64,000 nucleotides of DNA from Eggerthella timonensis (GTDB lineage: Bacteria > Actinomycetota > Coriobacteriia > Coriobacteriales > Eggerthellaceae). Positions 3,115 to 45,886 of this stretch are shown here, piece after piece. A program made the translations under genes and the position numbers. The notes below the pieces were generated by a model. That model did no database searches. It was not told the DNA's origin and saw only the letters and a program-made list of their open reading frames with translations. The DNA lies in NCBI RefSeq assembly GCF_900184265.1, contig NZ_FXXA01000002.1, forward strand, positions 496,001 to 560,000. Reading direction: 5' to 3'. The stretch's first letter is position 1. Every line of letters starts with the position of its first letter.

Positions 3115-3375
3115 GCGACTCTCCCATACGCTCTCATAGCCTTAGAAATGATTCTCTGGACTAATTATATGTGAGAAGAGATTCGATATGCGGCGCAAGT
3201 GCGCAAAGGCAATGGTCAGCTCTCATTGTGCGATGCGATGGCCTCGTCAAACTTGTCAAAGGCCAAACGGTTAGAGAAGACGATTGGCGTAATGGGGCAA
3301 GTTGGGAATATGCTGCCAAATTTAAAAACTTCAGGTTTTGCATGCGTCGGCCTCAAGGGATCGACCCCGGTTTTC
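3115..3375. other. Intergenic region with a possible gene remnant
   Basis: Upstream of the NTPase gene there is no convincing complete gene. A plus-strand frame opens after a stop at 3172-3174 and reads through about 3345 with protein-like composition (for example LSLCDAMASSNLSKAKRLEK), then runs into antisense of the next gene. It has no Shine-Dalgarno sequence and looks like a truncated coding fragment, perhaps from a mobile element. I cannot name it. Confidence 0.3.
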
Positions 3376-12977: not shown

Positions 12978-14273
12978 ATGGCTACCACTACAGCCAAAAA
13001 GAAGGGGATAAGCTTCGCCTGGTTCGTCCTTATCGGCGTACTGCTGATGATGGGTCTGTGCCGCGGCGGCATCAACAGCGGCATGGGCTTGTTCTTCCAG
13101 CCCATCAGCGCCGATATGCACATCGGCGTCGGCGAGGTGGCGATGATGTCGTCCATCTCGGCTCTCGTCACCATGTTCTGGAGCCCGTTCGCGGGACGTC
13201 TGCTCGACAAGTTCGACATCCGCATCATCACGGTGGTGGCCGTGGCCGTCCAGGCGGGTTGCTTTGCGGCCTTGTCCTTGGTGGACGCAGTCTGGGGCTT
13301 CTACGCGCTGGCCGCGCTCATGGCGTTCGGCTCGGTGTTCGCCACGCAGCTCGTGGGTCCTATGATGATCAACCGTTGGTTCAAGGATAAGAACGGTTTG
13401 ACCATGGGCATCATGATGAGCTTCGTCGCCATCTGCTCCGCCGTCCTGTCGCCGGTCGTGTCGTCGATCATCGCGTCTTCGGGCTGGCGCATGGGCTACG
13501 TCGTGCTCGGCGTGCTCGCGCTCGTCATCGTGATCCCCGCCGCGCTCATCCTGTTCCGCACCCCCGAGCAGAAGGGCCAGCTGCCCCTCGGCGCCACCGA
13601 GGAGGACATCAAGGCCGCAGCCAATGCAGATCCGGCTGCCGCTGCCGAGGCCGCCAAGAACCTGCCCGGGCTCACGTCGAAGCAGGCGCTGAAGACCCCG
13701 ACGTTTTGGTTCTTTTTCATCTTCATGGTGCTGCTCACCGGCACGCTGGCTTTCGCCTCCATCGTTCCCACCCTGGCTATCGAAGCTGGCTACGACACGG
13801 TGACCAGCGGATTCGCCATGACGGCGTACATGGTTGGCACCGCCATCGCGGCTATCGTCTTCGGCACCATCTCCGACAAGCTCGGCCCTCTCAAGGCTAC
13901 GATGGTTGCCTGCGCGTGCGGCCTCATCGCGCTGCTCGGCCTGATCTTCTTCCGCACGAACCTCTATATGTTCTTCGGTTCGCTGTTCTTCTACGGCTGC
14001 CTGTCCGCCACGCTCGGCGTGATCGGCCCGCTCGTACTGGGCACCCTGTTCGGCCAGAAGGAGTTCGGCTCGATTTACGGCATCGTCATGATGGCTACCG
14101 GCATCGGCTCCATGATCCTCATCCCCGCCTACGGCTTCATCTACGACGCTACGGGCAGCTTCACAGGGGCGCTCGTCATGATCCTGTGCTTCATCATCGT
14201 CTGCGCGCTGTCCATGATCATGGCGTTCAAGACCGGCAAGAAGGTCCAGGCCATGTGGATGCCGAAGGCCTAG
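12978..14273 (+). CDS. MFS transporter, OFA-type carboxylate carrier
   Basis: The ATG at 12978 follows AGGAGGT, giving 431 residues with about 12 hydrophobic segments split by a charged central loop (about residues 190-240, TPEQKGQLPLGATEED). The sequence resembles the oxalate/formate antiporter-type branch of the major facilitator superfamily, typical for organic-acid carriers. As first gene of a CoA-thioester operon it most likely imports the acid substrate or exchanges it for the product. Betaine carriers of the BCCT type, found in carnitine operons of enterobacteria, are a different family, so carnitine itself is not supported as substrate. Confidence 0.82.
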   Translation: MATTTAKKKGISFAWFVLIGVLLMMGLCRGGINSGMGLFFQPISADMHIGVGEVAMMSSISALVTMFWSPFAGRLLDKFDIRIITVVAVAVQAGCFAALSLVDAVWGFYALAALMAFGSVFATQLVGPMMINRWFKDKNGLTMGIMMSFVAICSAVLSPVVSSIIASSGWRMGYVVLGVLALVIVIPAALILFRTPEQKGQLPLGATEEDIKAAANADPAAAAEAAKNLPGLTSKQALKTPTFWFFFIFMVLLTGTLAFASIVPTLAIEAGYDTVTSGFAMTAYMVGTAIAAIVFGTISDKLGPLKATMVACACGLIALLGLIFFRTNLYMFFGSLFFYGCLSATLGVIGPLVLGTLFGQKEFGSIYGIVMMATGIGSMILIPAYGFIYDATGSFTGALVMILCFIIVCALSMIMAFKTGKKVQAMWMPKA

Positions 14274-30876: not shown

Positions 30877-33870
30877 CTACCCGTTGTTCGCACGTTCGAG
30901 ATCGGCGGCGATCTCGGCCGAGGTCATCACTTTAATGGTTCTGCTGGGCAGCGAGTTGAGGAACGCCTTGCCGTAGCTTTTCGTCAGCAGACGACGGTCG
31001 GTAAGGATGAGCACGCCCGTATCGTCGGCCTTCCTGATGAGACGGCCGGCAGCCTGCTTCGTCTCAAGGACGGCGGCGGGCAGCACGTAACGTCGCCACG
31101 CCTGGTCATCGCGCGATGCGCGTTCGCACGACAACGGATCGGTCGGCTTAGCGAAGGGCAATTTCGGGATGATGACGCCCTTGAGCGTGGCCCCCGGCGC
31201 ATCGAAGCCTTCCCAGAAGCTCTTGAGCGCGAACAGCGACAGGTGCTCATCGGCCAGGAAGTCGTCGCGCAGGCCCTTCACCGACACGCCCCATTTCTGG
31301 CACACCACGCGCAGATCATCCTCTTTGAGCTGGGGTTGCACTTCTTCGAAGCATCGCTCCATCTCGCGACGGTTCGTGAACAGCGTCAGCATCGAGCCGC
31401 TTTGCGCGCGATGCACGTCAACCAGCAGCCGTTGCAGAGCCGCGAGGTAAGAGGCCTCATTCGGTTCGGGCATGTCGCTGGCCACGTACACCGTCATGTG
31501 CGCGTCGAAATCATAGCTGGAATCCAACTTGCATGTCTGGCAGGTCGAATGCTCCGACGCGTTCAGACCCAAAGCGCCCTCGAACGCGTCGAACTTGTCG
31601 TCAACGGCCAGCGTGGCGGATGCGAACACCGTCGAATGCGTGCGTTCGAACAGCGTCTCGTTCATCGCCTCGCCCACGTTGATCAGCAGCGCTTCCAATT
31701 TCTCGGCGACGCGATCCTTCTTGCGGCTCAACGTCGCGGCGTAGGCGTACGTTTCCGGAGCCTTGTCCAAGATGATGTCGGCCGCGTTCATCTGTTCTTT
31801 GAGTTCCATCGCCGTCGATGCGATCTCGCGCTGGATCTCGGCGGCGCCTTCGAGGTCTTCCAGGTAGCCCACGAGCTCCTGACACACTCGCACCAGCTTC
31901 TCGGCTGCTTCGGTCATTGCACGTCCATAGCTTGCGACCTGGGCAAACGTTGCACTCGAGCGCACGTCGGCATTGATCCACAGCTCTACGATCTCGTAGC
32001 CTTTGCCCTTCCTGTTCTGATCGAAGAACAGGAGGTCTTTAAGGTGCGCGGCGAAATCGCGCGCCGCGTCGGCATACGCCTTGCCAGCCGCTCGAGCCTT
32101 TCCGGTGAGCGCGTAGAACAGCGACGATCCCTCTTCCATGCCGGGAACCACCACGCGGCGTTCGGCGCGCACGAACACGTTGCGGGACGCCTCATCGGCC
32201 CCCACGCGGTTGGCCAGACGCGTGATATCCTCAGCCGATAGCGACAGCGAGAACGCACGGCGAGCCTCGGCTTCGGCGCCGTGGGCCTCGTCCACCACCC
32301 AGTAGCGGATCGGCGGAAGCAATCCGCCGTCGGCCACGAGGTCGCAGAACAGCAGGCTATGGTTGGTCACCACGATATCGAGCGCCTCCGCACGGCGACG
32401 CGAGCCGTGAACGAAGCACGAAGTACCAAAATAGGGACACTTCCTGCGCAAGCAGTCGTTCGCCGTGGTCGTGATGATGCGCCGCGGCAGCACGCGGTAG
32501 TCGATCTTCAAGCTGTCCATGTCATCGTATTCGGTTTGCTCGATGAACGACAGCAACGCCGCGAGCGAAGGAGCCTGGGTTTGCTCCTTGTTGCCGAACA
32601 GCTTCGTCTGCGCGCCTTCGGCCACCAGATGCCCGATCTTGCGCAGGCACGGATAATGCGAGAACCCTTTAAGCGGTGCATACGTCAGTGGCGGGCGCTC
32701 GGGATCGGAAGCCTCAAGCGCTTTCGCCAAAGCGGGTAGTTCATGATAAACCAGCTGGTCAAGCAAGGTATTGGTTTTAGTTGCCACACCCACGGCGATG
32801 TTGTTGGCACGCGCTGTCAAAGCGGCGGGCACCAAGTATGCCATGGATTTTCCTACGCCGGTTCCAGCCTCCACCAACAGGTTTTCCGAGCTTGAAAACG
32901 CGTTGCGCACGGCTTCGGCCATGGCAACCTGCTCCATGCGCGGCTCGAAGTCGTCGTACAGCGCGCCCACGAGCCCCGCTTCGGAAAAAGCTTCAACGAT
33001 GTCATCATTGGACGGAAATGCGAGCGAGCGCTGCGGGTCTGCTGCAATGTCGTCGGCATCCAATTTCGCAACCCGCTCCAGTTTGCCCAAACGATCGCGG
33101 CGCAACGTGCGTAGCGAAAATTTCAACTCAGATGTTTCACGTGAAACATCGTACTTCTGCGCGAACTGATCGAACACCATCTGCGTCGACCATTCGTCAG
33201 GGGTCGCCATATGCGCGATCTCGCACACGAGCGCCGGGGGCATCGTCGCGACGCCGGCCAGCAGGATGCGGAATATAGCGCAGGTTGCCTCAACGTCGGC
33301 GTCAGCGCGGTGTGTCGACAAGGGAGCGCCGAACGCGCGCACGAGATCGAGTAGACGATGCGACTTCAAGCGCGGAAGCGCGATGCGCGCGAGATCGAGC
33401 GAGTCGATCCACGTGTTGTTCAACAGGGGATAGCCGCTCGGATGGCGCGTGGTGAACGTGCGGTCGAATTCGGCGTTATGCGCAACCACCTTCGCATCGC
33501 CGACGAATTCTACGAGTTTCGCCAGAGCATCCGAAGGAGACGGAGCATCGGCAACGTCGCTGTCGTGAATGTCGGTGAGGTGCGCGACATCCTCCGGAAT
33601 GGGCTTGCCGGGGTTCACGAACGTGATGAACCATTCAACGATCTCGCCGCTTTCCATACGTGCCGCGGCGATCTGCGTCAATTCGTCGTGATGGAACGAG
33701 AAACCCGTCGTTTCCGTGTCCAGTACCACGATATTGTGGTCAAGATCGCCGAAATCCGCCGTTGCGGCGATTTCCGGGAGCGAAGCGTACCGATCGCAGA
33801 TGGCCTCCGAGGTACCATCGCTTATGAAACTTTGCAGGGCATCCTGCCAGGGAGTGTTTTGTTTATCCAT
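30877..33870 (-). CDS. dinG: DinG-family helicase with N-terminal DnaQ-like exonuclease
   Basis: The 997-residue protein combines two enzymes. The DEDD exonuclease has DTETTG at 51-56, VVAHNAEFD and HRADADVEAT. The superfamily 2 helicase has Walker A EAGTGVGKS, a DEAH box in VVDEAHGAEAEAR and four cysteines around DCLRRKCPYFGTSC that could hold an XPD-type iron-sulfur cluster. Such proteins unwind DNA or R-loops during repair. The gene contains an exact parS site at 33133-33148, read as DVSRETS. Usual DinG-exonuclease proteins of Gram-positives are close to this length. Confidence 0.9.
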   Translation of the reverse strand: MDKQNTPWQDALQSFISDGTSEAICDRYASLPEIAATADFGDLDHNIVVLDTETTGFSFHHDELTQIAAARMESGEIVEWFITFVNPGKPIPEDVAHLTDIHDSDVADAPSPSDALAKLVEFVGDAKVVAHNAEFDRTFTTRHPSGYPLLNNTWIDSLDLARIALPRLKSHRLLDLVRAFGAPLSTHRADADVEATCAIFRILLAGVATMPPALVCEIAHMATPDEWSTQMVFDQFAQKYDVSRETSELKFSLRTLRRDRLGKLERVAKLDADDIAADPQRSLAFPSNDDIVEAFSEAGLVGALYDDFEPRMEQVAMAEAVRNAFSSSENLLVEAGTGVGKSMAYLVPAALTARANNIAVGVATKTNTLLDQLVYHELPALAKALEASDPERPPLTYAPLKGFSHYPCLRKIGHLVAEGAQTKLFGNKEQTQAPSLAALLSFIEQTEYDDMDSLKIDYRVLPRRIITTTANDCLRRKCPYFGTSCFVHGSRRRAEALDIVVTNHSLLFCDLVADGGLLPPIRYWVVDEAHGAEAEARRAFSLSLSAEDITRLANRVGADEASRNVFVRAERRVVVPGMEEGSSLFYALTGKARAAGKAYADAARDFAAHLKDLLFFDQNRKGKGYEIVELWINADVRSSATFAQVASYGRAMTEAAEKLVRVCQELVGYLEDLEGAAEIQREIASTAMELKEQMNAADIILDKAPETYAYAATLSRKKDRVAEKLEALLINVGEAMNETLFERTHSTVFASATLAVDDKFDAFEGALGLNASEHSTCQTCKLDSSYDFDAHMTVYVASDMPEPNEASYLAALQRLLVDVHRAQSGSMLTLFTNRREMERCFEEVQPQLKEDDLRVVCQKWGVSVKGLRDDFLADEHLSLFALKSFWEGFDAPGATLKGVIIPKLPFAKPTDPLSCERASRDDQAWRRYVLPAAVLETKQAAGRLIRKADDTGVLILTDRRLLTKSYGKAFLNSLPSRTIKVMTSAEIAADLERANNG
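33133..33148. promoter_or_regulatory. parS site inside dinG
   Basis: TGTTTCACGTGAAACA, exact; one of two sites inside an accepted coding sequence. Confidence 0.9.
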
Positions 33871-33951
33871 ACGGGTAGCCTATCATCTATCATGTGAACA
33901 CACAAACCGTTACGCCGACGTTGACAAAAAGAACGGCTCAAAGGAGAGAAC

Positions 33952-34596
33952 ATGCAGGCAGAGCGCTATTTCGGAACGTATGCACGATTCGACACCCTTT
34001 CGAAGAAAGACGCTGCAGCGCTGCTGGGAGCCGACAACCTCATCGGCGACGTGTTCGAGATCGTGTTCCAAACCGAGCATGGCGTGTCCACTGCTTGGAT
34101 GAAGAACCGCTTCGGAGGTCTCATCGGTTTCTTCGACGCCGCGTTCTCACGCGAGTTGAGCGTTCTCGCTGCGCGCGGATGGAACCTGCAGGCGTTACTG
34201 TCGTTCGTCGCGTTCACCGACCATCCCGAACCCGGCCATTACTGGGGTCAAGCGGCGGTCATATGCTACGATCCTACCCTCGATCAGGCATTCGAGCCCT
34301 TCATCGCCTCGACCGCCCAGCGTTTGTCCGACGGCGTGCGCCCCGAAGTCGACCTTGGAGAACAAGGCGTCGAACAGGTTGTATCCAGCAACGGCTCGTG
34401 GACTCCCAAGAAAACCGTGGCGTTTCCCGAGAAGGAGACGGGCACGGTGATTATGAAGAGCCGTCGCAAGATGTCCGAGAAGCTTATCGAGCAGGGACGC
34501 AAGGGCAACAAGGGCTGCTATGCCGTCAGTTGGCTGTTTCTGCTGCTGCTTGTCGCCCTTGCCCTGTTCGGCCTCAAATCGTGCGGCGTGTTCTAA
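33952..34596 (+). CDS. Tail-anchored hypothetical protein, 214 aa
   Basis: The ATG at 33952 follows GGAGAG. The first 170 residues are soluble and without a known domain (RYFGTYARFDTLSKKDAAALLGADNLIGDVFEIVF). The C-terminus has one hydrophobic helix (about 193-208, SWLFLLLLVALALFGL) and ends KSCGVF, so it is probably anchored by its tail. It lies alone between the divergent dinG gene and the convergent ddl gene; the parS-centred palindrome at 34601-34624 separates it from ddl. The function is unknown. Confidence 0.6.
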   Translation: MQAERYFGTYARFDTLSKKDAAALLGADNLIGDVFEIVFQTEHGVSTAWMKNRFGGLIGFFDAAFSRELSVLAARGWNLQALLSFVAFTDHPEPGHYWGQAAVICYDPTLDQAFEPFIASTAQRLSDGVRPEVDLGEQGVEQVVSSNGSWTPKKTVAFPEKETGTVIMKSRRKMSEKLIEQGRKGNKGCYAVSWLFLLLLVALALFGLKSCGVF

Positions 34597-34604
34597 CCTC
34601 AGAA

Positions 34605-34620
34605 TGTTTCACGTGAAACA
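34605..34620. promoter_or_regulatory. parS site between convergent genes
   Basis: Exact 16-mer at the centre of a 24-bp palindrome (34601-34624) that separates the tail-anchored protein gene from ddl. The palindrome could also act as a weak two-way terminator. Confidence 0.9.
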
Positions 34621-34622
34621 TT

Positions 34623-35546
34623 CTACGCAAGGGCGTAGCCGATAAGGCGCGTGCACAACTCGGGGAACGAGATTCCAGCAGCGCGTGCCGCATCGGGAAG
34701 CAGCGACGTTCCCGTCATGCCCGGAATGGTGTTCGTCTCCAGCGTCCAGCACGATCCATCTTCTTCCAAGATGAAGTCTGAGCGCGAAACCCCCTCGCAC
34801 GACAACGCGCGATGCGCGCGCACCGCAAGATCCTGCACCATACGCGTCGTTTCCTCAGGAAGCGGCGCGGGGCACAGGTGCTGCGAGCCGCCGGGTGCGT
34901 ATTTCGATTCGAAATCGTAGAAATCGCTTTTCGGCACGATCTCGATGATGGGAAGCGCTTGCACCTCGTCGTGGCCGATGACCGCGACCGTCAATTCCTT
35001 ACCTTTTATATAGCGTTCGATCAGAACCTCGGAGTCGATGGCGAATGCCTTCTCGATCGCCTCAGCGATCGCCTGCGCCCCTTCGACGATGAATACGCCA
35101 AGCGCGCTTCCTTCCGTACCCGGTTTTACCACGCAATGCGTTCCCAGCTTCGCGACGATCTCGTCTACATCGTAGGAATCGCCCGCTTGCAGCGGCACGG
35201 ACGGCGGAGTAGGAATGCCGGCCCGCTCGTAATACACTTTCGACTTCACTTTATCCATCGCCAATGCGCTTGACCAGACGCCTGATCCGATATACGGGAG
35301 CCCGATCGTCTCCAAAAGTCCCTGCACCGTGCCATCTTCGCCGTACTTACCGTGCAAGCAGAGAAACGCAACATCGAAAGGACCGTCGATAAGACGCTTC
35401 AGGTCCTCCTTTTCAGCAGGATCGAGCTGCGTGACGATGTATCCTGCTTCCTCAAGGGCCTCACGCGCACCCTCGGCCGATGCAAGCGATACCTCCCGTT
35501 CCCCACTCTTTCCTCCGGCAAGCAATGCCACCCGGCAATCAGACAT
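34623..35546 (-). CDS. ddl: D-alanine-D-alanine ligase
   Basis: The ATG at 35546 (MSDCRVALLAGGKSGEREVS) has AAGGA just upstream; a longer reading to 35678 runs through a parS site and is not supported. The 307-residue ATP-grasp enzyme shows GGKSGEREVSLAS, HGKYGEDGTVQGLLE, LPYIGSGVWSSALAMDK and ETNTIPGMT. It joins two D-Ala for peptidoglycan. The length is that of the compact DdlB type. It is transcribed toward the tail-anchored protein gene. Confidence 0.93.
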   Translation of the reverse strand: MSDCRVALLAGGKSGEREVSLASAEGAREALEEAGYIVTQLDPAEKEDLKRLIDGPFDVAFLCLHGKYGEDGTVQGLLETIGLPYIGSGVWSSALAMDKVKSKVYYERAGIPTPPSVPLQAGDSYDVDEIVAKLGTHCVVKPGTEGSALGVFIVEGAQAIAEAIEKAFAIDSEVLIERYIKGKELTVAVIGHDEVQALPIIEIVPKSDFYDFESKYAPGGSQHLCPAPLPEETTRMVQDLAVRAHRALSCEGVSRSDFILEEDGSCWTLETNTIPGMTGTSLLPDAARAAGISFPELCTRLIGYALA

Positions 35547-35597
35547 GCATCCTTCTTTCATCATCCTTGATACGTTCGTTGCAGTATAGCAAAGGGA

Positions 35598-35613
35598 TGT
35601 TTCACGTGAAACA
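35598..35613. promoter_or_regulatory. parS site in the rlmN promoter
   Basis: Exact 16-mer ending two bases before the rlmN -10 element, in the divergent ddl-rlmN region. ParB binding here should block RNA polymerase. Confidence 0.9.
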
Positions 35614-35615
35614 TG

Positions 35616-35621
35616 TATAAT
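35616..35621 (+). promoter_or_regulatory. rlmN -10 element, leaderless arrangement
   Basis: TATAAT is followed by seven bases and then the ATG at 35629. The preceding ATG at 35620 overlaps the -10 itself and cannot be in the mRNA. No clear -35 is visible; the spacer is parS. Confidence 0.6.
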
Positions 35622-35628
35622 GACCGCT

Positions 35629-36657
35629 ATGGATAAACCAATCAAAACATACGCGCTCCCCGAACTCGCTTCTCTCATGAAGGAATTGGGGCAGCCCGCC
35701 TTCCGCGCTCAACAGCTGCAGGAATGGCTCTACCAACGACATGCAACCAGCTACGACGAGATGACGAACCTCCCTGGCGCGCTGCGGACGGTTCTTGCCG
35801 AGCGTTTTCCGCTCACGACGCCTCTCATCGTCGATCGTCAGGTGTCGAAGGATAAAACGCGCAAGTATCTCATCGAATTCGATGATGGAATCCGGGTGGA
35901 AACCGTTGCCATCCCTTCGCGCAATGGCGAGCGCTTGACCGTGTGCTTCTCCACGCAAGCGGGATGCGCTATCGGCTGCGCGTTCTGCGCAACCGGCCAA
36001 GAGGGATTTGCGCGCAACCTCACGCCAGGAGAAATCGTCGACCAAGTACTCATCGCGCAAGACGACATGGGCACGCGCGTGACCAACGTCGTGGGAATGG
36101 GCCAGGGAGAGCCGTTCCTCAACTACGACAACACCTTGGCTGCGCTGCGCATCCTCAACCATAAAAAGGGTTTGGAGATCGGTGCTCGGCATATCAGCGT
36201 GTCAACCTGCGGGATTCTGCCTGGTTTGAAGCGCTTTGCCGAAGAACCTGAGCAATTCACCCTCGCCGTGTCTCTTCATGCGGCGCGGCAACCGATCCGC
36301 GACCTTATTATGCCGAATGTGGCGCGCTACAAGCTACCGGCATTGAAGGAGTCACTCCAAGAGTATGTCGCGAAGACAAGCCGCCGCGTTACTCTGGAGT
36401 ACATCATGATCGAAGGCGTGAACGACGCTCCTGCCGACCTCAAGGCGCTGCAAAAATTCTGCTCCAATCTCATGTGCCATGTGAATCTGATTCCTATCAA
36501 CGCTATAGAGGGATCGGAATTCCAACCGAGTCCGCTGGAAACGATCGATCTGTGGCTTTCCGAGATCTCGAGGCGAGGGACGGAAGCAACGCTCCGCGAT
36601 TCACGAGGCTCCGATATAGCAGGAGCATGCGGGCAGCTTAAAAACACCTTCAAATAA
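35629..36657 (+). CDS. rlmN: 23S rRNA/tRNA (adenine-C2)-methyltransferase RlmN
   Basis: The 342-residue radical SAM enzyme has the cluster motif CAIGCAFCATG (CxxxCxxC), GMGQGEPFLN and the conserved ISVSTCGILPG with the catalytic cysteine. A second catalytic cysteine is near the C-terminus in GACGQL. It methylates A2503 of 23S rRNA and A37 of some tRNAs. The start at 35629 is chosen because the upstream ATG lies within the promoter. It ends at the parS-centred terminator. Confidence 0.93.
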   Translation: MDKPIKTYALPELASLMKELGQPAFRAQQLQEWLYQRHATSYDEMTNLPGALRTVLAERFPLTTPLIVDRQVSKDKTRKYLIEFDDGIRVETVAIPSRNGERLTVCFSTQAGCAIGCAFCATGQEGFARNLTPGEIVDQVLIAQDDMGTRVTNVVGMGQGEPFLNYDNTLAALRILNHKKGLEIGARHISVSTCGILPGLKRFAEEPEQFTLAVSLHAARQPIRDLIMPNVARYKLPALKESLQEYVAKTSRRVTLEYIMIEGVNDAPADLKALQKFCSNLMCHVNLIPINAIEGSEFQPSPLETIDLWLSEISRRGTEATLRDSRGSDIAGACGQLKNTFK

Positions 36658-36697
36658 GAAAGCCCCGAATGTTTCACGTGAAACATTCGGGGCTTTC
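36658..36697. terminator. Perfect 40-bp palindrome: two-way terminator with parS at its centre
   Basis: The sequence is symmetric from 36658 to 36697, with outer arms GAAAGCCCCGAA and TTCGGGGCTTTC and parS as the core. It lies between the 3' ends of convergent rlmN and parB. The GC-rich stem plus T-run (CTTTCCTTT downstream on plus, A-run on the other side) fits an intrinsic terminator in both directions. Confidence 0.85.
36670..36685. promoter_or_regulatory. parS site inside the rlmN/parB terminator
   Basis: Exact 16-mer forming the loop-proximal part of the 40-bp palindrome. Confidence 0.92.
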
Positions 36698-36709
36698 CTT
36701 TGCCTTCGC

Positions 36710-37759
36710 TTAGGATGCGGCGGCGATGAGCTCCTCAAACAACCGCTCGAGATCTTCTTCATCTTGGAATTCAATCTCGATTTTGTTCTTGCCGTTCGAC
36801 GACTTCACTTTCACCGGCGTATGCAGAACATCCTTCAGCGCCTTTGCCACCGTTTTGTACGTCTTCGGCAACGGCTCCTTCTTCGTGGGGGTGTCACTGC
36901 GCTTTCCCGAGAACAAACGCGCAATCGCTTCCGCTTCGCGCACGGTAAGCTTCTCTGCAACGAGCTTGTCCGTGAGCTTCTGGCGCCCTTCCTTCGTGGG
37001 AATGGACAGAATCGCGCGTGCATGTCCCGCAGAAATCTTTTCTTCGAACAGCAATTGCTGCGCTTCTTCGGGAAGTTCGAGCAAACGGAGCGCGTTCGCC
37101 ACCGTAGAGCGGCCTTTCGACATCGCTTGGGCCACTTCGGACTGCGTAAGATTGCGTCGCTCCATCATACGACGATACCCATACGCTTCTTCGATAGGAT
37201 TAAGGTCAGAACGCTGGATGTTCTCAACGAGGGCGAGTTCGAGCGCTTGATCATCGTCCGCATCTTTGATGCGCACCGGGACGGTCTTCAAACCCACGAG
37301 CTTGCATGCTTGCCAACGACGCTCACCGGCAATGATCTGGTACTCATTACTCCCGACCGGGCGCACCAGAATCGGCTGCAGCAGGCCATCTTTCTCGATA
37401 GACGCTGCAAGTTCCTCCAAAGCCTCTTTTTTGAAGTTCGTACGCGGCTGATCAGGGTTCGGACTCACTGACTCGATAGGAACCTCGTCGGTTCGGCGTT
37501 GCACGACGCTCTTGATGGTTACCTGGCTCTCACCGTCGACGATCGATTCCTCCTGCATTGGGGGAATTGTTTCACGTGAAACATTCTGGAGTTCAGATTC
37601 GGGCTCAGGTCGCGCTGGTGCCGACATCGGCACTTCTTCGCGCTCTTGCTCCACCAACACGCGCTTCGGAGTAGCCTCAAGGGGGGCCGCTTCCTCGTAT
37701 GCGCCGCCAAGAAGCGAGTTCAGACCACGGCCCAACCCGCTTTTGTTCGCTTTAGCCAC
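36710..37759 (-). CDS. parB: Chromosome partition protein ParB
   Basis: A GTG at 37759 overlaps the parA stop by eight bases; the product has 349 residues. The N-terminal domain has IIAGERRWQA (GERR at 145-148, the CTP-binding motif) and the helix-turn-helix is at about 204-227 (LTQSEVAQAMSKGRSTVANALRLL), the type that recognises parS. A basic N-terminal stretch (SGLGRGLNSLLGG) contacts ParA. The C-terminal dimerisation domain is complete. An exact parS lies in its own coding sequence (37568-37583, read as NVSRET). ParB loads at the parS sites of this window, spreads, and recruits ParA and SMC. Confidence 0.95.
   Translation of the reverse strand: MAKANKSGLGRGLNSLLGGAYEEAAPLEATPKRVLVEQEREEVPMSAPARPEPESELQNVSRETIPPMQEESIVDGESQVTIKSVVQRRTDEVPIESVSPNPDQPRTNFKKEALEELAASIEKDGLLQPILVRPVGSNEYQIIAGERRWQACKLVGLKTVPVRIKDADDDQALELALVENIQRSDLNPIEEAYGYRRMMERRNLTQSEVAQAMSKGRSTVANALRLLELPEEAQQLLFEEKISAGHARAILSIPTKEGRQKLTDKLVAEKLTVREAEAIARLFSGKRSDTPTKKEPLPKTYKTVAKALKDVLHTPVKVKSSNGKNKIEIEFQDEEDLERLFEELIAAAS
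37568..37583. promoter_or_regulatory. parS site inside parB
   Basis: Exact 16-mer in the coding sequence, residues 60-64 (VSRET) of ParB, in the variable linker where sequence is free to change. Confidence 0.92.
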
Positions 37760-38720
37760 GTTGTACCACTTCCTTTGCGAGGTTCATATACGATTGGGCT
37801 CCCTTGCCCGACGGGTCGTACTGCGTGATAGGCTGACCGAAGCTCGGTGCCTCGGAGAGCTTGACCGTGCGGGGAATGAGCGTCGCAAACACCGTTTTGC
37901 CGAAATAGCTGCGCACTTCTTCCACGACCTGTCGTGAAAGCGTCGTGCGACCGTCGTACATCGTCAGAAGCACACCGAAGATATCCAGCGTGGGATTCAG
38001 GCGTGTTTTGACACGTTTCATTGAATCAAGAAGTTTTGTCACGCCTTCCAGCGCGTAAAACTCACACTGAATGGGGATCAGAAGCTTGTCAGCAGCAACA
38101 AGCGCATTAACCGTCAACAAGCCGAGAGAAGGGGGACAATCGATAAATACATAGTCGTACTTGCCGCGAAGGCTTCCTACGGCGTCTTTTAAGCGATTCT
38201 CACGGGCCATCTCAGACACAAGCTCTACTTCTGCCCCTGCGAGGTTGATCGTGGCTGGTACGAGGTCTAATCCTTCGCCCACATCTGGGATGATCACATC
38301 CTCGATCGCCACGTCGTTCAACAATACGTCGTACACGCAGTTATGGACCTGGCTCTTCTCGATTCCCAGTCCACTTGAAGAATTGCCCTGAGGATCGAGA
38401 TCGACGAGCAACACCTGCTTGCCCAGCTCGCCCAATGCGGCAGAAAGGTTGATCGCAGTCGTAGACTTCCCGACGCCGCCTTTTTGATTGATGATGGCCA
38501 TAACCTTCGTCTGACCAACCACGTGCTTGACGGGCGCCTTCTCCTTGATCGTCTTGATTGGAGTGGGAGGTACTTCTTGTTCGACCACCGGTCTCGTCGT
38601 CTCACGCTCAACCACTTCGATGTGATCGATGATCAACTCGTCCTCTACGATCTCTTCCTTTTCATGCTTGACAGTCTCTGCTGCTTTTTTGTCTCGTTTG
38701 AGACCATCGAATAGTCCCAC
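37752..38720 (-). CDS. parA: Chromosome partition ATPase ParA (Soj)
   Basis: The GTG at 38720 follows AAAGGGGG and gives 322 residues. The ATPase core begins at about residue 72 (KVMAIINQKGGVGKSTTAINL; deviant Walker A at 80-87), with DLDPQGNSSSGLG next. The first 70 residues are a charged extension not found in minimal Soj proteins. ParA would pull ParB-parS complexes apart after replication. Its promoter overlaps a parS site (see 38749-38777), pointing to control by ParB. Confidence 0.95.
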   Translation of the reverse strand: MGLFDGLKRDKKAAETVKHEKEEIVEDELIIDHIEVVERETTRPVVEQEVPPTPIKTIKEKAPVKHVVGQTKVMAIINQKGGVGKSTTAINLSAALGELGKQVLLVDLDPQGNSSSGLGIEKSQVHNCVYDVLLNDVAIEDVIIPDVGEGLDLVPATINLAGAEVELVSEMARENRLKDAVGSLRGKYDYVFIDCPPSLGLLTVNALVAADKLLIPIQCEFYALEGVTKLLDSMKRVKTRLNPTLDIFGVLLTMYDGRTTLSRQVVEEVRSYFGKTVFATLIPRTVKLSEAPSFGQPITQYDPSGKGAQSYMNLAKEVVQRG

Positions 38721-38748
38721 AGGGACCCCCTTTCTTAACCGCGAACAC

Positions 38749-38777
38749 AGTATACCCTGTTTAGTGTTTCACGTGAA
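38749..38777 (-). promoter_or_regulatory. parA promoter with parS half-site as -35
   Basis: On the minus strand TTCACG (38777-38772), a 17-base spacer and TATACT (38754-38749). The -35 is the middle of the parS at 38765-38780. The same arrangement is seen before dnaN. Confidence 0.65.
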
Positions 38778-38780
38778 ACA
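38765..38780. promoter_or_regulatory. parS site overlapping the parA promoter
   Basis: Exact 16-mer, symmetric over 18 bp (38764-38781). Confidence 0.92.
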
Positions 38781-38791
38781 CTCGTCCAAAA

Positions 38792-38807
38792 TGTTTCACG
38801 TAAAACA
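38792..38807. promoter_or_regulatory. parS variant upstream of parA
   Basis: TGTTTCACGTAAAACA, one base changed in the right half. It is 27 bp from the exact site, centre to centre, so all three sites here lie on a short stretch. Confidence 0.7.
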
Positions 38808-38831
38808 TTCGAAGCACGTTAGAACCAATAG

Positions 38832-38847
38832 TGTTTCATGTGAAACA
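38832..38847. promoter_or_regulatory. parS variant (central T) upstream of parA
   Basis: TGTTTCATGTGAAACA, one central base changed. The same variant, read from the other strand, occurs at 58092 and 58140. Confidence 0.7.
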
Positions 38848-38974
38848 TTTATAGAAACCGCATTGGAAACGGAGGCAAACGGTATGAGATTCGCATAGGC
38901 TGCGCGCTAGAAACCTACCATCTGCGCGTAAGACCACGTGTGTACAATACTAGATAGGGAAAAGGAGGTAGCTG

Positions 38975-39382
38975 ATGAACACTACTCGGCGGCAATTACT
39001 CGCTCAACGGGCAAGCTCGATGCGAAAACAAATGACCTATGCTGAGCGGAGACTTTGGTTTTCGTTCTTAAGGGAATATCCTACACCATTCGTGGCCCAG
39101 AAAGTCATAGGATCGTACATCCTTGACTTCTACTGTCGTAAAGCGCGGTTGAGCATAGAGCTCGACGGTGACAGCCATTATACGAAGAGCCAAAAAGACT
39201 ATGACCGCATACGAACTACGTATCTAGAGATGTTGGAGATCAAGGAGCTCAGGTTCACGAACACTGATGTGATCGAGAACCTTGAAGGCGTATGCGAGAT
39301 GATCCATGCGGAAGTGCTCAACCGTCGCAACGATGTGCAGGAATATGCGGATCTGTTTCGACAGATGAAAGATAAACGTTAG
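38975..39382 (+). CDS. DUF559 endonuclease-like protein
   Basis: The 135-residue protein has the DUF559 pattern: MTYAERRLWFSFLR, then IGSYILDFYCRKARLSIELDGDSHY and RTTYLEMLEIKELRFTNTDV. DUF559 has a Vsr/PD-(D/E)xK nuclease fold; the D of LDFY and the E-x-D of IELDGDSH are the likely catalytic residues. AAAAGGAGG precedes the ATG. It lies between parA and rsmG, in an otherwise conserved segregation cluster, and its biological role is unknown. Confidence 0.82.
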   Translation: MNTTRRQLLAQRASSMRKQMTYAERRLWFSFLREYPTPFVAQKVIGSYILDFYCRKARLSIELDGDSHYTKSQKDYDRIRTTYLEMLEIKELRFTNTDVIENLEGVCEMIHAEVLNRRNDVQEYADLFRQMKDKR

Positions 39383-39401
39383 AGCAACGTGAGAACGGCG
39401 C

Positions 39402-39441
39402 TAGGTTTCAGAATGTTTCACGTGAAACATTCTGAAACCTA
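39402..39441. terminator. Perfect 40-bp palindrome with parS at its centre
   Basis: Symmetric from 39402 to 39441, with outer arms TAGGTTTCAGAA and TTCTGAAACCTA. It lies at the convergent ends of the DUF559 gene and rsmG and includes the rsmG stop codon. The stem is less GC-rich than at 36658 and no long T-run follows, so termination is less certain than the symmetry. Confidence 0.75.
39414..39429. promoter_or_regulatory. parS site in the second 40-bp palindrome
   Basis: Exact 16-mer at the convergent DUF559/rsmG junction. Confidence 0.92.
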
Positions 39442-40086
39442 CAACGGCCGTTTTTGGGCCATCCCGGTTTTCCTCGGCAGCTTGATCGAGGGCTGGCCGG
39501 TTTTCTCAAAGCAGATGATGCGGCGGCACGTATCGCCGAGCGACACGGTGCGGTCAGACGAAAGCTTCATGCCGAGACGCTCTTGCAGCGTGAGTGCATG
39601 CTCGAATTCTTCGTCCGATACGTTCGCTTTATAGCAAACCAATCTGCCTCCGTCCTGAAGCAGGGGGCTCGCAAGTTCCATGAGAACCGACAGCTGCGCG
39701 AGCGCTCGAGCGGTGACCACCGTACATGCAGTAGGCATCTCGCGCGCAAGATCCTCAATACGACCGGTGTACACCTCTACATTGGTCAATCCCAGCTCCT
39801 TCACCATCGATGCAAGGATCGCTGTCTTCTTGCCGACCGAATCTGCGAGCAGCGTTTCACGGCCGGTCTCGATTGCAAGGGGTATGCCGGGATATCCTGC
39901 TCCCGATCCAATGTCGATCAAACGGCCCATAGGCGCGTCCTGAACTTCTGGAAGCCCAACAAGGGAGTCTTCCACATGCAGAAGCATACCCTCGTCCCAA
40001 GTCGATATGCGCGTGATGTTGGTGGTTTTGTTCGCTTCGATAACCAATTCTAAATGGCGCTTCAAAAGTTCGTCGTGCATTTCCAA
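39439..40086 (-). CDS. rsmG: 16S rRNA (guanine-N7)-methyltransferase RsmG
   Basis: The 215-residue SAM enzyme shows LIDIGSGAGYPGIPLAIE (SAM-binding loop) and VVTARALAQLSVLMELASPLL, typical for RsmG/GidB, which methylates G527 of 16S rRNA. It stands in the usual place between jag and the par genes. Its promoter region (TATACT on the minus strand at 40115-40110) is next to a parS at 40122. Its stop codon is part of the 40-bp parS palindrome. Confidence 0.93.
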   Translation of the reverse strand: MEMHDELLKRHLELVIEANKTTNITRISTWDEGMLLHVEDSLVGLPEVQDAPMGRLIDIGSGAGYPGIPLAIETGRETLLADSVGKKTAILASMVKELGLTNVEVYTGRIEDLAREMPTACTVVTARALAQLSVLMELASPLLQDGGRLVCYKANVSDEEFEHALTLQERLGMKLSSDRTVSLGDTCRRIICFEKTGQPSIKLPRKTGMAQKRPL

Positions 40087-40121
40087 CTCCTCTACGTTGA
40101 TATGCCCTCAGTATAAAGGAA

Positions 40122-40137
40122 TGTTTCACGTGAAACA
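40122..40137. promoter_or_regulatory. parS site in the rsmG promoter region
   Basis: Exact 16-mer; palindrome extends over 22 bp (40119-40140). It begins six bases upstream of the likely rsmG -10 element and so covers the -35 region. Confidence 0.92.
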
Positions 40138-40158
40138 TTCCCAGCATGGTGTTTCCAA

Positions 40159-40174
40159 TGTTTCACGTGAAACA
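40159..40174. promoter_or_regulatory. parS site between jag and rsmG
   Basis: Exact 16-mer, 37 bp from the previous site, just after the jag terminator. Confidence 0.92.
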
Positions 40175-40184
40175 TTCAGGCACG

Positions 40185-40212
40185 AAAAAGCCCGCACCTT
40201 TCGATGCGGGCT
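40185..40212 (-). terminator. Intrinsic terminator of the rpmH-jag operon
   Basis: Minus-strand stem AGCCCGCA/TGCGGGCT (40212-40205 and 40196-40189) with an eight-base loop, followed by a run of T. It separates jag from rsmG. Confidence 0.85.
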
Positions 40213-40242
40213 TCCAAATTCGGGTCGTTCTGTGCGTTCGCG

Positions 40243-40764
40243 TTAACGGGGGAGGATCACCACGTGCCGAGCGCTGCCTTCACCTTCGGACGCAGTCTCC
40301 ACGCGATCGTCATCGCGCAGGCAGATATGCACGATACGGCGCTCGTACGGCGTCATCGGACGCAGCTTGATGCTGCGGTTTTGACCGGCCGCTCGGTTCG
40401 CCGAAGAACGCGCGATCGACTCGAGCTTCTCACGCTGGCGGCTCTTGTAACCCTCGACGTCCACGATGACCGGGTAGCGGAACCCGATGGTGCGCACGGT
40501 GATCGCCGAGACAAGGAACTGCAGCGCATCAAGCGTTTTGCCGTGACGGCCGATGAGCACCGCCAGATCATCGCCCGTGATATCGAGGATCAGCTCACCC
40601 TCGTCGCCCTCGTACTCGTCGATGGTCACTTCGCCCACATCGAAGTACTTGAGGATATCCTGAAGCGCGCCGATCGCCGTATCGGCAATGCGATCGAGAT
40701 CCTCATCGGTCAGTTCGGAGGGTTCCTCATCAAGAGGCTTCTCATCAACCAATTCTTCAGCCAT
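40243..40764 (-). CDS. jag: KH/R3H RNA-binding protein Jag (KhpB)
   Basis: The 173-residue protein has an acidic N-terminal part, a KH domain with VLIGRHGKTLDALQFLVSA and a C-terminal R3H domain (RKLESIARSSANRAA... MTPYERRIVHICL). KhpB acts with KhpA as an RNA chaperone affecting cell elongation in Gram-positives. It follows yidC directly, as usual, with parS at 40779 in the short gap. Confidence 0.9.
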   Translation of the reverse strand: MAEELVDEKPLDEEPSELTDEDLDRIADTAIGALQDILKYFDVGEVTIDEYEGDEGELILDITGDDLAVLIGRHGKTLDALQFLVSAITVRTIGFRYPVIVDVEGYKSRQREKLESIARSSANRAAGQNRSIKLRPMTPYERRIVHICLRDDDRVETASEGEGSARHVVILPR

Positions 40765-40778
40765 GGCAGACTCCTCAA

Positions 40779-40794
40779 TGTTTCACGTGAAACA
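40779..40794. promoter_or_regulatory. parS site between yidC and jag
   Basis: Exact 16-mer in the 37-nt gap between the yidC stop and the jag start; the jag Shine-Dalgarno GAGGAG directly follows on the minus strand. Confidence 0.92.
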
Positions 40795-44325: not shown

Positions 44326-45886
44326 ATGAACAGCGAAAAACTCGAGCAGGTCTGGTCGGAAGTTTGCGACCAGGTTAAAAGCTACAACAACATCGACCCC
44401 TCGCAGATCAACGCGTTCTTCTCGCGTCTGCATCCTCAGGCCATGAGCGACGGGTTCCTCATGGTCACCGCCGACAACGACTTCATCAGGACGTGGATCG
44501 AGCGACACTACGTCGAATTCATCAAGCGAGCGCTGAACGACCTGTACCATATGCCGTTCACGGTGATCATCGAAGTGGACATCACGGCAACCGAACAGGC
44601 CGCCGCTCCGACGCCAGCGCCCGCACCGGCCCCGGCGGCCTGTTCGGTTGCCGTGATGTCCACTTCGATGATCACCGTGAACGGCATATGGTACAGGTGC
44701 GGCTCCGGCCCCCGCACCTACAGCCGCGCCAGCCTCCGCGCCGAGCGCCGAAGCCGTGCGCGACGAGGGAGGCGGGGAAGCGGGGGGCGAAGAACCGCGT
44801 CCTCGCGAGATCGCACTCGACGGGCCCGACAGCCCGGCCTCCACGCTCACGTTCGAGAACTTCGTCATCGGAGACTCGAACCGCATGGCGTACTCCATGG
44901 CCGTGGCCGTGGCCGAGATGCCGGGTAAGGCCCACCTCAACCCGCTGTTCATCTACGGCAAGTCGGGCTTGGGGAAAACGCACCTCATGCGCGCCATCCA
45001 GAACTATATCAACGAGACGATGCCGCAGCTGTCCACCATCTACGTCGACTCGGCCGAGCTGCTGAGCGACTACATGGAAGCCAGCGCCGCGCACGACAAG
45101 CAGAAGTCCAGCTACAAGAACTTCAAGACGCGCTACGAAGAGGCTGACGTCCTGCTCATCGACGACGTCCAGTACCTGCAGGGCAAGAAGCAGACGCTCG
45201 ACATCGTGTTCCAGATATTCAACAAGCTAACCAGCCAGGGCCGCCAGGTAGTGCTGTCGGCAGACCGCGCGCCGAAGAACATCGATATCGACGAGCGCTA
45301 TCGCAGCCGCTTCAACTCGGGCGGGACGTTCGACATCCAGCCTCCCGAGATCGAGACGAAGCTGGGCATCGTGAAGAGCTTCGTGGACGAGTACCGCGAG
45401 TCGGAAGGATCGTCCGATTTCAACATCCCCGACGACATCCAGATGTACATCGCCGAAAGTTCGAGCTCCAACATCCGCGAGCTGAAGAGCGCCGTCACGA
45501 AGGTGATCTATCAGATGACGTTCTTCAACCAGCCCAACCTCAAGCTGGACGACGTGCGCACGTTGCTGGAGAACCATTTTACCGGCGGCCCGTCGAGACG
45601 CCTCACCATCGCCGACATCCAAAAGGAAGTGGAGAACTTCTACAAGGTGAGCCACGCCGACCTCGTAGGCAAGAAGCGCACGCGCAACATCATCTACGCG
45701 CGGCAGATCGCTATCTATTTATGTCGTCAGATGCTCGACCTGCCGTTCAACGACATCGGCAAGAAGTTCAACCGCGATCACTCCACCGTGATGTACTCGG
45801 TGACGAACGTCGAGGAGAAGATGAAGGAGAACCGCGAGCTGCGCGAGGAGCTGGAAGCCCTGCGCGGGCTCATCAACGAGATGTAG
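44326..45886 (+). CDS. dnaA: Chromosomal replication initiator DnaA, reading frame disrupted
   Basis: The ATG at 44326 follows AAGGAAG. Domain I (MNSEKLEQVWSEVCDQVKSYNN) reads normally to about 44639; domains III-IV read in another frame from about 44702 to 45886, with Walker A GKSGLGKT, LLIDDVQYLQGK, RFNSGGTFDI and the DNA-binding signature RDHSTVMYSV. In the Ala/Pro linker an inverted copy of upstream sequence is inserted (arms 44540-44605 and 44633-44698). As written, the first frame continues to a stop at 44928 and the second has stops at 44654, 44669 and 44678. Removing 64 nt (44640-44703, bounded by GCGGC) restores a 498-residue DnaA. The intact 3' frame has a GTG at 44756. An artefact is likely, because dnaA is essential. 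Confidence 0.9.
44540..44698. repeat. 66-bp perfect inverted duplication inside dnaA
   Basis: 44540-44605 and 44633-44698 are exact reverse complements over 66 bp, with a 27-nt GC-rich spacer. The left arm is the normal coding sequence for the end of domain I; the right arm reads ACSVAVMSTSMITVNGIWY in the first frame, which does not belong in DnaA. Confidence 0.97.

Follow-up and report, generated by a model that had tools for sequence, protein, structure and literature searches.

The dnaA gene of the Eggerthella timonensis genome assembly reads in two different frames because of an inverted copy of its own domain I sequence, and this copy, the second arm of a 66-nt inverted repeat, is with a probability of about 0.85 a sequencing and assembly artefact, produced when a self-primed chimera folded back from the end of one contig and gap closing joined it to the neighbouring contig. 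The artefact was preferred because a second, marked fold-back is found in the same assembly, the gene is unbroken in the congeners, the site lies at a peak of GC content, and the genome was produced by a short-read pipeline. In the cell, dnaA most likely consists of one frame, with the linker sequence at the junction being uncertain.

The window, that is, the whole 64-kb stretch of DNA analysed, contains both parts of the gene on the forward strand. The 5′ part (44326–44639), coding for domain I and the start of an Ala/Pro linker, is in frame from the ATG at 44326. Pfam DnaA_N was matched by residues 8–71 of this frame (E 3.6e-10), and the 5′ part aligned with the corresponding sequences of 3/3 congeners. 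The reading frame opened by this ATG closes at a stop ending at 44928. The 3′ part (44681–45886), which comprises the remaining linker and domains III and IV, lies in another frame, on which Pfam Bac_DnaA and Bac_DnaA_C were found; it showed 98% identity to 3/3 congeners over the aligned part. This second frame is open to 45886 from a TGA read from the sequence at 44678–44680 (forward strand). The TGA is located inside the second arm, in agreement with the initial annotation, according to which this arm adds stops to the downstream frame, and the arm shifts domain I and domains III–IV into different frames. The GTG named there is also present, at 44756 within the open frame of domains III–IV, as a possible internal start; no clear ribosome-binding site was recognized by eye in the sequence ahead of it.

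Alignment of the two arms bore out the claim that positions 44540–44605 (forward strand) and 44633–44698 (reverse strand) are exact reverse complements, with 66 of 66 nt (100%) matching and 27 nt of the Ala/Pro linker (44606–44632) between them as a loop. The first arm had been described as normal coding sequence for the end of domain I, which holds, as this part of domain I is conserved in 3/3 congeners. Among perfect inverted repeats with spacers of up to 2000 nt, the runner-up of the window had arms of 22 nt, and the maximum length of a perfect arm ranged from 11 to 14 nt across 20 surrogates generated from the window with a first-order Markov model (spacers of up to 400 nt). The repeat of 66 nt is therefore not a product of chance.

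The second arm is made up of a seed (44633–44639) and a fold-back tail (44640–44698). The seed, CGGCGGC, pairs with GCCGCCG at 44599–44605 in a 7-bp stem closed by the 27-nt loop. Since these seven bases (7/66) are ordinary linker that was already complementary to 44599–44605, the out-of-place copy amounts to about 59–64 nt. The tail is followed by GCGGC (44699–44703, forward strand), a direct repeat of 44635–44639, and the right-hand sequence resumes at about this point. As to an ancestral imperfect inverted repeat, the 7-bp seed would be present even without the tail, and such a repeat could not be recognized in the relatives, whose linkers have diverged too far.

Two further candidates were rejected. 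A second dnaA copy elsewhere in the genome was not found, domain I and domains III–IV being each present in one place, and a 261-nt DNA query matched its own locus, that is, itself and its own inverted arm, and nothing else. An invertible switch between the arms was discarded, as inversion of the 27-nt loop does not touch the frame problem.

The comparison with the dnaA of close relatives proposed in the initial annotation gave an unbroken gene in 3/3 congeners, with single frames of 508 (G003), 520 (G001) and 516 (G002) codons, and the inverted element was absent from all three. In a wider collection, 109 dnaA loci, some of which may be the same species counted twice, were gathered and 103 of them were examined, the six others being left out for lack of the motif used to locate the gene. 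In the 102 loci other than that of E. timonensis, inverted repeats close to the linker had arms of at most 22 nt, and the distance from the upstream stop to the ATPase motif was 88 codons at E. timonensis dnaA versus 148 at the next of the 103 loci. In an Adlercreutzia dnaA (L087), an inverted repeat of 22 bp enclosing a 20-nt loop was observed upstream of the ATPase motif, the frame being intact.

Deletion of positions 44640–44703, which had been put forward as a repair, does give an in-frame gene of 498 codons, with GCGGC present at 44635–44639 and 44699–44703; one in three removals of this kind would bring the frame back in any case. The further step, to regard the 498-residue protein as the real DnaA, is not supported, and this sequence is not established as the true one. 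Without the 64 nt the span from DND..W to LTFENF is 103 aa, and with them kept it is 373 nt (124.3 aa), compared with 113, 121, 121, and 125 aa in four Eggerthella loci, two of which (L004 and L031) possibly come from a single species. A span of 103 aa or less was found in 7 of the 37 relatives having both motifs. Since the shortened span of 103 aa is below the 113–125 aa of Eggerthella, the tail may stand in place of real linker of about the right size, as opposed to being a pure insertion.

The draft genome of E. timonensis Marseille-P3135 consists of 3,916,897 bases in two scaffolds and was obtained from MiSeq data only, using Nextera XT paired ends (12 PCR cycles) and mate pairs (PMC6182555). 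In the pipeline paper cited by the species description (Elsawi et al. 2017), which is distinct from a log of the Marseille-P3135 assembly itself, assemblies were attempted with Velvet, SPAdes, and SOAPdenovo, each of them being treated with GapCloser (PMC5552949). A nearly closed chromosome derived from MiSeq data probably rests on many gap closures.

The second arm of dnaA adjoins the 150-nt stretch with the highest GC content in the window (44699–44848, 78% GC; 0 of 63,851 segments of this length are higher). At the 100-nt scale, positions 44699–44798 reach 80% GC, with 5 of 63,901 segments higher, all at one other place, and at the 60-nt scale 46 of 63,941 segments exceed the site beside the second arm. 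Nextera XT libraries drop very GC-rich places, and failure of short-read coverage is to be expected at 44699–44848, a likely coverage hole.

Inverted repeats were then considered in a sample of the E. timonensis genome comprising 100 stretches and 2,044,000 bases (2.04 of 3.91 Mb), the window included. With arms of at least 18 nt and spacers of up to 400 nt, 115 inverted repeats were obtained, 56 of them with single-copy arms. Single-copy arms of at least 40 nt were found in three of the 56, namely in dnaA, at L145:13199–13306, and at L225:3536–3739; these three were tested against relatives, and the other 53 (arms below 40 nt) were judged by eye. No arms of at least 40 nt were present in 400,000 bases each of the congeners G003 and G001, samples that are smaller than that of E. 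timonensis.

The repeat of L145 (13199–13246 and 13259–13306; C2:1844960–1845067) has 48-nt arms and a 12-nt turn, lies in coding sequence and breaks a conserved gene. The split gene carries the motif CPLRCAYCQN (L145:13138–13306; C2:1844899–1845067), and from this Cys motif we take it to be radical SAM-like; Pfam names neither of its halves. The gene was found in five relatives, four of which were aligned, and in 4/4 it is contiguous through the fold-back site. A lone N (L145:13198) borders the outer edge of the fold-back, and the 28 nt to the left of this N reappear at 13238–13265. Because of this recurrence, the N is most naturally read as the mark of two contigs whose ends truly overlap by 28 nt and which were separated by a false 39-nt tail carried by the right contig and copied back from its own sequence. 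The sample contains three lone-N joins, and a fold-back tail is present at one of them. At the second (L163:15875), which shows no such tail, a stretch of 187 nt is present on both sides of the N and the repeat number is uncertain; at the third (L145:14777), neither a fold-back tail nor a repeat of at least 11 nt across the N was found.

The third repeat, L225:3536–3739, was rejected as an artefact. It is intergenic, with 51-nt arms and a 102-nt spacer, the preceding gene ending at 3344 and the relatives of the next gene matching from about 3900, and it has a counterpart at the same place in G003 with 87% identity. Partial copies of this palindrome occur elsewhere in the E. timonensis genome, and it is a natural dispersed palindromic element. 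A natural palindromic element was also considered as an explanation and rejected: L225 is one, and the repeats of dnaA and L145 consist of coding sequence.

Several dispersed motifs were observed in addition. Four multi-copy repeats with arms of at least 40 nt, each built on a GGGACGGGG core, were found among the first 60 stretches of the sample. At L131:15293–15463, L176:12107–12208, L152:16662–16753, L137:2398–2485, and other places, palindromes were seen that are built from GAGACAGAGGGACGGGGTAAT..GTCTCAT and are perhaps a REP-like element that has spread in E. timonensis. Their core pattern, A[GA]GGGACGGGG, was counted 27 times in the 2.04-Mb sample, and samples of 0.4 Mb each from G003 and G001 contained none. 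Sites of the parS-like sequence GTTTCACGTGAAAC are dense in the window, where 16 lie from 7189 to 62469, ten of these at 33134–40780. The sequence TGTTTCACGTGAAACA was counted 75 times in the 2.04-Mb sample, 30 of the occurrences being within 200 kb of dnaA and fewer farther off.

For the inverted copy in dnaA as an artefact, the following course of events is proposed. A strand ending in ...CGGCGGC within the GC-rich linker would fold onto GCCGCCG, and its folded end would prime itself and copy back over domain I. The resulting chimeric reads would carry the left contig beyond its true end, and gap closing would link the false tail to the right contig starting at about 44699. The exact fold-back geometry, the GC peak next to it, the short-read pipeline, and the second marked case in the assembly are observed, and the existence of the chimeric reads and the closing of the gap are inferred from them. 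Library artefacts of this form, with chimeric reads reversing direction at short inverted repeats that occur naturally, have been published (PMC10908179). The fold-back reads of the PDSM model in that report are like dnaA in running into their own reverse complement at a short inverted repeat; they differ in being low-frequency reads of human libraries, whereas the dnaA copy would be present in a bacterial consensus at a gap.

Several observations speak against the artefact. Unlike L145, the dnaA junction is not marked by an N, and two of the three lone-N joins are without a fold-back tail. The join would have required some overlap with the right contig, and only 5 nt (GCGGC) are visible. The site is also not unique in GC content at 100 nt, as 80% GC is reached at four places in the window including that of dnaA, and the other three, with equal or higher values, have no such inverted repeat. 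Of the fold-back or template-switch signature recognized in the initial annotation, the evidence favours a fold-back, within an assembly error, which is one of the options listed there; a dnaA that is split in the cell is not supported.

The inverted copy could instead have arisen by a real template switch at the short inverted repeat of the linker, the strain living on the domain III–IV frame from GTG 44756, which we regard as unlikely. The quasipalindrome switching known in E. coli is compatible with the 7-bp seed, the 27-nt loop, and the mismatch-free arms; its geometry is identical, the growing strand using itself as template at an imperfect inverted repeat before returning (PMC7202029). 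The reporter events described in that source remove a 4-bp frameshift, whereas the dnaA event would copy about 59–64 nt and throw an essential gene out of frame. The downstream frame is open and provided with a start codon, but a clear ribosome-binding site before this codon is missing, and the fold-back of L145, plainly a join artefact, sits in the same assembly. Life on domains III–IV only would require a cell in which domain I is not linked to the other domains; E. coli reportedly does not tolerate this, as its N-terminally truncated DnaA was reported not to be viable in vivo (PMC5448010). A perfect 66-bp hairpin would in addition be a hazard for replication. SbcCD as a barrier to the persistence of such a hairpin was not used as an argument, the match to the SbcD model being below the cut-off (57.6 versus 77.65 bits).

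It is highly improbable that the inverted insertion is real and the length of the assembly is off by one base, which would give a DnaA with about 21 extra linker residues in frame. The second arm is free of stops in the frame of domain I, and both frames are open over 44681–44925, but 21 codons in a row often lack a stop by chance. Illumina data seldom contain length errors of a single base. Although domain II of E. coli DnaA accepts a GFP insertion (PMC5448010), the precedent of a fold-back at a scaffold join offers the simpler explanation.

Hardly any weight is given to recoding, in which the inverted copy would be real and a full-length DnaA would be made by a ribosome hopping from GCG 44635 to GCG 44699 over the hairpin, or by a later +1 frameshift, making dnaA a recoded replication initiator: the in-frame GCG codons (44635–44637 and 44699–44701) are matched, each in its own frame, and the arm region is much more stably folded than its shuffled versions (-161.7 kcal/mol, z -19.4), but an Ala/Pro linker would be expected to contain matched Ala codons, the favourable folding energy is a mere restatement of the inverted repeat, the take-off codon is followed by GCC and not by a stop, and the element is present in none of the relatives examined (absent from 3/3 congeners, with no inverted repeat of this length among the 102 dnaA loci other than that of E. 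timonensis). The likeness to the bypass of phage T4 gene 60, where matched codons flank a gap beside a hairpin, does not extend to the stop after the take-off codon or to conservation (PMC5009743), and a functional ribosome bypass in dnaA is very unlikely.

The type-strain genome of E. timonensis serves as outgroup for E. lenta phylogenies in two 2026 preprints (PMC13060105, PMC13174815). An essential gene reads broken in this genome, and flagging it prevents a false claim of a DnaA devoid of domain I. Other short-read drafts can easily be screened for an inverted copy beside a lone N, as in L145. Were the copy in dnaA real, it would be a great surprise that a cell lives without a linked domain I or recodes its dnaA.
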